Source: Candidatus Zipacnadum vermilionense
GTDB lineage: Bacteria > Armatimonadota > Zipacnadia > Zipacnadales > Zipacnadaceae
DNA length: 64,000 nt
Reading direction: 5' to 3'
Assembly (NCBI GenBank): GCA_029821755.1
Contig: JALGSV010000007.1
Location: forward strand, 1 to 64,000
The notes under the pieces were generated by a model. The model did no database searches, was not told the DNA's origin, and saw only the letters and a list, made by a program, of their open reading frames with translations. The translations under genes were made by a program, and so were the position numbers. Positions 15,880-18,590 of the stretch are shown one piece after another. Within the stretch, counting starts at the first letter, position 1. Each line of letters begins with the position of its first letter.

Positions 15880-16518
15880 ATGTGCAACTCCTTGGTGGTC
15901 GTTGGTCGTCGGCACGAACATGGATCGTGGCGGGCGAGTCGGACAGCGTCCGTCGGCCAGACAGCCCGCCTTCGACGGAGTCTCCCAAGCCACGAAGCAC
16001 GGCCATTTTCCCCCGCTAGTCCACCGTCAATCCCCCGCTTTTCCACCTGGTTTTCCACAGGGTCTCCATGCCAGACACCCTCCAACGCCCACGGGGCAGG
16101 CTGCGAAAAAAAAGATTCGCCAAGAGCGTGTGCGCTCAGAGCGCATGCGCTCAGACCCGCCGCCCTCGCGGTCGTCACTCAACCGAACTTCAGTTGGGCA
16201 AGACCGTTGCTATTGAAGGGGTGATAGGAAGTGGTGTGAAGAGGGACGCGCCGTGGGCGGACAGGCTTTCTGCCCTGTCCGCTTCCTGGCCCCAGAGACA
16301 GGCTAGAAAGCCCGTGCTCCTCTGCCCGGTCCCCAAACCGGGCGGCCAGGTGGCGGCGCGCCGAAGTACAAAGATTGCCCCGATGTTTTGCCCCGATAGT
16401 GATCCAGTTGTCGAGCGGGAAGCCAGTCGGCTCTCGCGCGTGGGCGGTATATTCCCTGCGCGGCAGAGCGTTTCCTTCCCGGTCAGGAGAAATGCTAGAA
16501 AAAAGAGACGCGGGCCGC
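15880..16518. other. Long non-coding gap
   Basis: About 640 bases without a gene I can support. It holds a self-complementary stretch at 16137-16150 (GAGCGCATGCGCTC as read on the minus strand) with an A8 run at 16106-16113 that could act as a minus-strand terminator, and a paired type B repeat at 16251-16320. Confidence 0.45.
16251..16320. repeat. Type B repeat, inverted pair
   Basis: Two copies of the type B unit face each other: GGACAGGCTTTCTGCCCTGT at 16259-16278 and ACAGGCTAGAAAGCCCGTG at 16298-16316, separated by about 18 bases. The same head-to-head arrangement is seen at 48301 and 63900. Confidence 0.65.
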
Positions 16519-16791
16519 CTAACTACCGTTCCACCGCTTCAACTTCGAGAGGACCTCCCCGGCCATCTGGCGCGCCTGGTCCGCCGTCATTCCCCTTTGC
16601 TCGGCGAAACCGACCAGCTTGTCGATCATTTGCGCTTGCGTGAGGTCGGCGATAAAGGAGCCCGACTGGAAGCAATGTCGGCAGAAATCCACGGATAGGG
16701 TGCCGTCAGCGTTGGCGCCGCAGTCCTCCGGAGCGCTGAGCGGCATCGCGCAGGACTGGCAGACGGAGGCGACGGATTCGCAGTTGGGAAT
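16519..16791 (-). CDS. Small zinc-ribbon protein, apparent ATT start
   Basis: About 90 residues of the putative zinc-ribbon family related to PF12674. Family landmarks: CQSCAMPLS, then GANADGTLSVDFCRHCFQSGSF, a helix (TQAQMIDKLVGF) and the C-terminal KLKRW. The first ATG, at 16746, falls inside CxxCxMPL and would delete two of four zinc ligands. Upstream the frame is open only to a TAG, with no ATG, GTG or TTG. At 16791 there is an ATT preceded by a perfect AGGAGG, 8 bases away. I therefore propose initiation at ATT, as known for infC. The gene follows the phosphoesterase gene by about 60 bases. Its function in the cell is unknown. Confidence 0.75.
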   Translation of the reverse strand: MPNCESVASVCQSCAMPLSAPEDCGANADGTLSVDFCRHCFQSGSFIADLTQAQMIDKLVGFAEQRGMTADQARQMAGEVLSKLKRWNGS

Positions 16792-16853
16792 AAGGGGAAC
16801 CTCCTATCTGTTGTACCGTTCAGCTCGACGGACGCGACGGGAGGAGCCGTGGT

Positions 16854-18590
16854 TCACGGACCCTCAGTGGGGGCAGCGGTAGCCTTCTCCACCTGGTTGG
16901 ACACCCTCAGGTCATCCAGCAGGAAGGAAATCGTGGAGGACGTTGCCACTTGGGGCTCCCGTCCGTAGGCCACCAGCAAGGCGCCTGAGTAGGGAACGAG
17001 ACGCTCCTCGGGCTGCACGCCTTCCTCCGCGACGAGTTTGCCATCTACATAAAGGCGCACGCTGTTGCCATCAAAGGTTCCGGTGAGCCGCTGCCAGACG
17101 CTGGCGGTGAGGGGACCGGGCGTGGTCAAGCATACCTGGCGCGACTGGCCCGGCGCCCGGAGTTGTACCGTGAACTGCGCAGTCCCGTCCTTGTTCAGCG
17201 CCAGTTCGTAGGTGCCCTTGCCCAGTATGCCGTACGGAAAGCCCAGCGGCTGCTCAGCAACGTTGACGTCGGCGCGCACGGTCAGGCGATTGGTGAGGCA
17301 AGGCGAACTGAGCGTGTAGCTGTCGACACCGGAGAAGCCCCGCGCACCCTCCAGCCCACAGCGCAGCGCGAAACCGGCGCCGCGAGGCAGCCACACCGGC
17401 ACTTCGGACCACACCAGACGCACCCCTTGCTCCGTGAAGCGGTGGACAAAGGCTCCCACTGTGGGCGCGAAGCGGAAGAGCCCGTTGGAGTAAAGGTTGT
17501 TGGCGTAGCCGCTGCTATCCACCAGACCATGCCCTATCCCGCTGTCGCAGGTCAGGCGGAGAACCTCGCCGGGCAGTGCCTCGAGGTTGCCGCGCCAAAC
17601 GGGCCGAGAGCCCTGAGGGCCGAACTCCGGCGGCAGGGGCCGCGCCTCCACCGCTCCCGTCGGGATCACCTCCGGAGCGCCGACCAGGACCGGTGCCGGG
17701 GCCGTAGCCGTAGCCTCCCCGGCCTTTAGCTTCTCCCAGGCGCTGGCGTGCAGGGCGTAGGTGATGATGCAGTCGGCTCGCACATGGAACATCCGGTAAC
17801 TGCCGTCTTGCGACAGGGCGCCGGTGCCCAGCCACAATATGCCCGCGTCCCGCACCAGCGGGTAGTTGGCGTGACGGTGGCCGAAGGCGATGACTATCTG
17901 CCGGTAGCGGGGACGGTGGTACTGCAGCAGCTCCACCAGCGCCTCTCGGTTGAAGAGCGCATCCCGCCCGTGGTGCAGGAGGAGGAAGACGTTCTTGTCG
18001 GCATGCGCCGCCAGGACCTCGTGCACCCAGGCCAGCTCATCCAGTCGCAGCGCGCCCTCATGGGACCGCGGCCAGACCGAATCGAGGAAGATGAATAGAT
18101 TGTCTCCCTCCTCTCGGAAGAACCAATCACCCTTGTCGGTCCCGGGGGAGGGGACACTCTCGCTTGGCGTCCAGGTGCCGAGGGAGTAGTTCTTGTCGAC
18201 GTTTCCGGGCACCACCAGGGTCGGGAGCGGCGATTCGGCCAGGAGCTTGAGGAAGGCGGCCTGCGCGGGTGGACTCCAGTTACCGCCGCTGTCCACGTTG
18301 TCACCGGTGATGGCGACCAGGGGGATTTTCCCATAGCGGCCCTCGATCTCTTGGAGGGTGCCCGTCACCAGCTCTGGGGAGTGGTCAAGGTTCGTGCCGG
18401 TGAACTGCGTGTGGGTGTCGCTGACCTGGGCGAAGGTGACGGCCCCGGCTGTAAGAGCCTTCACGTCTCCTGCCTTGACCCAGGCGGCAACCTGCTCGGG
18501 GGTCGGCGCTGGCGCCGCGGCGCTTCCGACCAACGAAGCGGACCAGGCGCACGCCCATACCAGCGCGGGTAGTAGGGACCGGTGCTTCAT
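16854..18590 (-). CDS. Secreted metallophosphoesterase with LamG-like domain
   Basis: 578 residues. A signal peptide (ALVWACAWSASLVGSAAA) leads to a calcineurin-like phosphoesterase domain with the metal ligands DTH (D58, H60), GDNVD, GNVDK, LLHHG and GHRHAN. From about residue 340 a concanavalin-A/LamG-like sheet domain follows (RLTGTFDGNSVRLYVDGKLV), which would bind carbohydrate or another surface partner. It is probably exported, where it would release phosphate from an unknown ester or cyclic nucleotide. ATG 18590 has GGGAGG 8 bases upstream. The zinc-ribbon gene follows in the same direction. Confidence 0.85.
   Translation of the reverse strand: MKHRSLLPALVWACAWSASLVGSAAAPAPTPEQVAAWVKAGDVKALTAGAVTFAQVSDTHTQFTGTNLDHSPELVTGTLQEIEGRYGKIPLVAITGDNVDSGGNWSPPAQAAFLKLLAESPLPTLVVPGNVDKNYSLGTWTPSESVPSPGTDKGDWFFREEGDNLFIFLDSVWPRSHEGALRLDELAWVHEVLAAHADKNVFLLLHHGRDALFNREALVELLQYHRPRYRQIVIAFGHRHANYPLVRDAGILWLGTGALSQDGSYRMFHVRADCIITYALHASAWEKLKAGEATATAPAPVLVGAPEVIPTGAVEARPLPPEFGPQGSRPVWRGNLEALPGEVLRLTCDSGIGHGLVDSSGYANNLYSNGLFRFAPTVGAFVHRFTEQGVRLVWSEVPVWLPRGAGFALRCGLEGARGFSGVDSYTLSSPCLTNRLTVRADVNVAEQPLGFPYGILGKGTYELALNKDGTAQFTVQLRAPGQSRQVCLTTPGPLTASVWQRLTGTFDGNSVRLYVDGKLVAEEGVQPEERLVPYSGALLVAYGREPQVATSSTISFLLDDLRVSNQVEKATAAPTEGP

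Follow-up and report, generated by a model that had tools for sequence, protein, structure and literature searches.

A stand-alone zinc-ribbon gene of Candidatus Zipacnadum vermilionense that probably starts at AUU

The window, that is, the whole stretch of 64,000 nucleotides analysed here (contig JALGSV010000007.1 of assembly GCA_029821755.1), carries on its minus strand a short zinc-ribbon open reading frame (ORF) behind a longer gene. The features relevant to its translation start are the following:

16854–18590, minus strand: upstream ORF of 578 aa with a LamG_3 domain in its C-terminal part, ending 62 nt before the ATT (ORF list, profile match)
16804–16857, minus strand: possible 17-codon upstream ORF, beginning with a GTG that overlaps the upstream stop TGA (GTGA) and ending at the TAG (sequence)
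16760–16810, minus strand: predicted hairpin with 11 outer pairs, in which the Shine-Dalgarno arm pairs with the early-coding GCCUCCGUCUG and the AUU lies inside (folding)
16804–16806, minus strand: in-frame TAG closing the frame upstream and overlapping the Shine-Dalgarno sequence (sequence)
16800–16805, minus strand: Shine-Dalgarno sequence AGGAGG, which as AGGAGGT can pair over 7 nt with the 16S tail (sequence and the 16S tail found)
16789–16791, minus strand: proposed ATT (AUU) start codon; no other in-frame codon from the TAG to CQSC is a usable near-cognate of ATG
16750–16761, minus strand: first zinc-ligand pair, C11-Q-S-C14 (invariant in 33 alignment rows)
16744–16746, minus strand: first in-frame canonical start, ATG, whose use deletes Cys11 and Cys14 (sequence, profile, alignment)
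16672–16683, minus strand: second zinc-ligand pair, C37-x-x-C40 (invariant in 33 alignment rows)
16519–16791, minus strand: stand-alone Zn_ribbon_2 ORF with the proposed ATT start, 90 codons plus a TAG stop (frame reading, profile match)

Inspection of the minus strand confirmed that the zinc-ribbon feature is real and correctly read. After the TAG (16806–16804), the frame continues as GAG GTT CCC CTT ATT CCC AAC TGC GAA TCC GTC GCC TCC GTC TGC CAG TCC TGC GCG ATG(16746), with ATG, GTG and TTG all absent in frame between the TAG and the CQSC motif. Since a complete domain can be made only from a start ahead of CQSC, where no canonical codon is available, the ATT is the only plausible start. 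An earlier note on this DNA, made from the letters alone, had proposed precisely this, and both its upstream start and its choice of ATT were borne out by the codons read and by a PF12674 match that is complete only with an upstream start. The perfect AGGAGG described in that note was also found, at 16805–16800, followed by 8 nt (TTCCCCTT) and then by the ATT at 16791–16789. As it had further anticipated, the ATG at 16746 would be the annotators' choice. Translation from the ATT predicts the N-terminus (M)PNCESVASVCQSC.

With regard to composition, GC3 was 0.87 from the ATT to CQSC and 0.65 before the TAG, where the codon score was negative. The coding score of the zinc-ribbon ORF was modest (0.14 per codon), that of the part between ATT and ATG alone was approximately zero, and the short ORF was missed by a simple gene caller run on the contig. 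Together with the analyses below, the sequence indicates that this is probably an intact stand-alone Zn_ribbon_2 gene whose translation starts at the AUU at 16791, a claim that rests on one consensus sequence from a 4.39-Mb assembly of 115 contigs. A terminator-like stem followed by a T run was observed just past the stop of the ORF (16506–16520, minus strand); this signal is weak, given that two such sites were found against 1.7 expected from shuffles. Furthermore, a 66-bp intergenic stretch of the window (16256–16321) matched another position of the same genome (C17:57460–57525) with 74% identity (E 3e-4) and is possibly a dispersed repeat.

The 90-aa reading matched PF12674 (Zn_ribbon_2) with 86.3 bits over profile positions 1–81 of 81, the curated cut-off being 22.5, while the version starting at ATG 16746 matched only positions 7–81, with positions 1–6 missing. 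In an alignment of 33 rows, comprising the window protein and 32 related loci (a subset chosen from the listed reading frames), 10 columns were invariant (C11, Q12, C14, G25, C37, C40, G44, F46, R86 and W87). All of them, including the four cysteines, are retained by the window protein, and therefore the reading frame is not decayed. The four cysteines in two CxxC pairs that characterize the family are present provided that translation begins upstream of 16746. An AlphaFold2 model built from the 33-row alignment reached a mean pLDDT of 88.5, with values of 85–94 for the blocks from residue 11 on. A fold search of the PDB with this model retrieved no convincing match (best E 2.1), a profile search of PDB sequences gave a single weak and unconvincing one, an NCBIfam search gave none for the protein, and a literature search on PF12674 found nothing. 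A Pfam scan was run on eight selected longer members of the family: three carried an AraC HTH plus a GyrI-like domain, one a GyrI-like/Cass2 domain, one a PNPOx-like domain, one YCII, and two were tandem zinc ribbons. These fusion partners point to a small accessory or regulatory module that binds zinc and may act in regulation or ligand sensing; a low dosage of such a module is plausible.

We then considered the Shine-Dalgarno sequence in the context of the genome. The 16S tail found in the same genome is GGATCACCTCCTTTCT, and it pairs with AGGAGGT over 7 nt. Among the 205 called genes of the contig with a chosen start (164 ATG, 29 GTG and 12 TTG; a 206th called gene lacked a canonical start in the vicinity of its coding signal), AGGAGG was used by 17 and GGAGG by 45. 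The spacing between AGGAGG and the start was 7–9 nt in 13 of these 17 genes, and a spacing of 8 nt lies within their range. Random stretches of the same contig, each with an in-frame stop followed by no canonical start, contained AGGAGG 5–10 nt before an in-frame ATT in 10 of 77,272 cases (approximately 1.3e-4), and before an in-frame ATT, ATC or ATA in 60. Genome-wide, 81 AGGAGG-N5-9-ATT sites were counted versus 50 for a reversed-pattern control. All 81 were examined (30 + 47, and 4 on the contig), and only three of them open a long coding-like ORF without a canonical start upstream; the two candidates other than the zinc-ribbon gene have a canonical start downstream, ahead of their coding signal. 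At the zinc-ribbon locus, a conserved protein without a canonical start thus coincides with a strong, suitably spaced Shine-Dalgarno sequence.

A wider scan of the 280-kb contig, covering several Shine-Dalgarno types and any non-canonical codon, returned 74 hits, with neither ATH nor CTG in excess. Two hits with ATC and two with CTG (the latter at one place) were read as antisense shadow ORFs, and one with ATA belonged to a gene having a probable ATG further in. By this measure, the contig makes no wide use of non-canonical starts. One called coding region that lies beyond the window (C71:252600–253292, minus strand) was observed to lack a canonical start within 40 codons of the onset of its coding signal.

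In order to place the ATT in its lineage, we took infC as a control and inspected 50 loci (30 + 20, drawn from the 59 of 61 genomes that gave a match), reading 15 codons back from the conserved YRVNE region or as far as a stop. ATH was the only start-like codon in 37 loci (24 ATA, 12 ATC and 1 ATT); in eight, a canonical codon was present alongside ATH or in its place, and five were not recognised by the motif. The infC Shine-Dalgarno sequences were GAGGTGA-like. In the own genome (L232, G000:C61:593–802, minus strand), an ATA stands behind GGGGTGAG at the aligned place, and the locus was counted among the eight because of a TTG seven codons upstream; two genomes of the same genus showed ATC and ATT, respectively, with the canonical codon absent. 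Across the infC loci (L202–L251), the start-like ATA or ATC, rarely ATT, often lies few codons past a TGA inside the Shine-Dalgarno sequence (GAGGTGA/GGGGTGA). Given such ATH-only starts across the lineage, its ribosomes very probably accept AUH codons as starts, if perhaps for infC only, as judged from sequence conservation. The parallel to infC drawn in the earlier note is strengthened, since the lineage's own infC appears to use ATA, ATC or ATT.

A different result was obtained for the conservation of the zinc-ribbon start itself. A protein search of 61 genomes gave matches in two, one of them the own genome, and revealed no close ortholog; PF12674 was detected in 14 of 291 genomes of the phylum Armatimonadota (own included), and the gene was absent from all of the 14 other genomes of its family. 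Similarly, a single-sequence scan of genome contigs for a closer ortholog found nothing, and a DNA search of 15 genomes matched the own genome only. The gene is therefore patchily distributed and was perhaps acquired. All 17 other phylum homologs had a canonical in-frame start before the first CxxC, as did 79 of the best 80 kept from an alignment scan of 312 relatives, the remaining one (L105) being unreadable; the two sets share five loci. In L054, L057, L062, L074 and L090, the canonical start lay only more than 20 codons upstream; three of these loci (L062, L074 and L090) each resemble the second copy of a tandem domain. Conservation of the ATT in orthologs, which the earlier note had put forward as a check, was thus not observed among these homologs, all of them distant. 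The same note had regarded an ATG or GTG at the same codon as a sign of sequence error. One phylum homolog (L009) does have a GTG at the position aligned to the ATT; the homologs are at most about 50% identical. By the criterion of that note, the failure of conservation is a hint that the sequence contains an error or that the start codon mutated recently; with homologs so distant and the family missing from close relatives, the conservation test is weak both ways.

The main rival to the AUU start is accordingly that the ATT reflects a recent loss of ATG, or a base-calling or consensus error, with ATG as the true or ancestral start and, if mutated, a gene that is silent or nearly so. ATT differs from ATG by one base, the gene is patchy and without an ortholog in its family, and natural AUG-to-AUU switches are very rare, with one among 61,358 ancestral AUG starts in the part of the source available (PMC5622118). 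This rarity, together with the canonical starts of all readable homologs, keeps a fresh mutation or consensus error a serious rival, albeit a rather unlikely one. Against it, the gene is otherwise undamaged: none of the invariant residues is missing, and no further error was found within the ORF. Furthermore, AUU behind a strong Shine-Dalgarno sequence should still support initiation, as it does in S. aureus cvfC1 according to the accessible text (PMC13009471), and so a start mutation would weaken the gene rather than abolish it.

Initiation at ATG 16746, yielding a shortened protein of 75 aa minus the first zinc-ligand pair, is very improbable: although this is the first in-frame canonical start and its product still matches PF12674 at 68.1 bits, it would dispense with Cys11, Gln12 and Cys14, invariant in 33 rows, and it lacks a Shine-Dalgarno sequence, whereas a perfect one precedes the ATT. 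Less credible still is a longer protein from the GTG at 16857, with the TAG read through or erroneous. That GTG shares the frame and overlaps the upstream stop (GTGA) in the usual manner, but homologs usually begin 4–12 residues before CQSC, the 17 added codons are arginine-rich and score negatively for coding, and this reading offers no explanation for the AGGAGG at the TAG.

We also considered whether the AUU start could be part of a deliberate low-output device, in which a hairpin hiding the Shine-Dalgarno sequence and the leader ORF would make the zinc-ribbon protein dependent on upstream translation and the level of IF3. In such an arrangement, ribosomes that terminate on the upstream gene would unfold the hairpin and then start again at the AUU. 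The hairpin has a predicted energy of -15.0 kcal/mol (z -2.4; of 200 shuffled sequences, 2 folded as well), the segment having been picked after a longer fold had been seen; the fold of the 118-nt leader was unremarkable (z 0.11), and the Shine-Dalgarno sequence was hidden as much or more in 20% of 92 comparison genes. The 17-codon leader, with a codon score of -2.7 and many arginines, shows no sign of coding on account of that negative score. The upstream ORF gave partial matches in 14 of 31 genomes (own included), those listed all falling in its C-terminal part, and with only such matches no conserved neighbourhood was found among the 31. A promoter scan detected none. Coupling to the upstream gene is only a possibility, and the device as a whole is distinctly unlikely.

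IF3 discriminates against codons such as AUU. If the zinc-ribbon gene is read from its AUU, the 30S subunit would be held by the 7-nt Shine-Dalgarno pairing, fMet-tRNA would be accepted on AUU at low efficiency, and the protein would begin with fMet. Its level would be low, roughly a tenth of the AUG output if the S. aureus reporters are a guide. In the accessible part of that work, the known non-canonical starts carry strong Shine-Dalgarno sequences, as in cvfC1 (AUU, about 10% of AUG output) and ccpN (AUA, about 10%, and up to 30% in rich medium) (PMC13009471). Excess IF3 reduces non-canonical starts, as stated in the portion available of a further study (PMC2268962). By analogy with these cases, low-level translation of the zinc-ribbon gene is well motivated, and with respect to regulation a passive sensitivity to the IF3 level can be inferred, nothing more.

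Starts beyond ATG, GTG and TTG are invisible to standard gene finders, and here half a zinc site would be lost as a consequence. A domain-complete gene with AUU as its only start would be a candidate addition to the few bacterial genes known to start at AUU, in a phylum whose infC broadly appears to use AUA or AUC. The zinc-ribbon case alone leaves the picture of initiation unchanged; domain boundaries combined with Shine-Dalgarno spacing offer a route to finding more such genes.

Most likely, the zinc-ribbon gene joins known AUU-started genes such as infC and S. aureus cvfC1. With the PF12674 family it shares the complete domain, the four invariant cysteines and the C-terminal LKRW, whereas ATG, GTG or TTG precedes the first CxxC in all the other members examined that could be read. 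With infC, which uses AUU, AUA or AUC and appears to do so in the window's own lineage, it shares an AUH start behind a Shine-Dalgarno sequence. The infC start, in contrast to the zinc-ribbon ATT, is conserved across the lineage; moreover, E. coli infC reportedly uses its start for autoregulation by IF3, whereas the zinc-ribbon product is not IF3. As far as it is described in the text available (PMC13009471), the product of S. aureus cvfC1 is likewise small and stands alone, potentially has a zinc-binding fold (a potential zinc finger), and is translated from an AUU start with a strong Shine-Dalgarno sequence. According to the same text, cvfC1 differs in its length of 61 aa, in being the first gene of its operon, and in a start that is conserved across staphylococci and was demonstrated by ribosome profiling and reporters.
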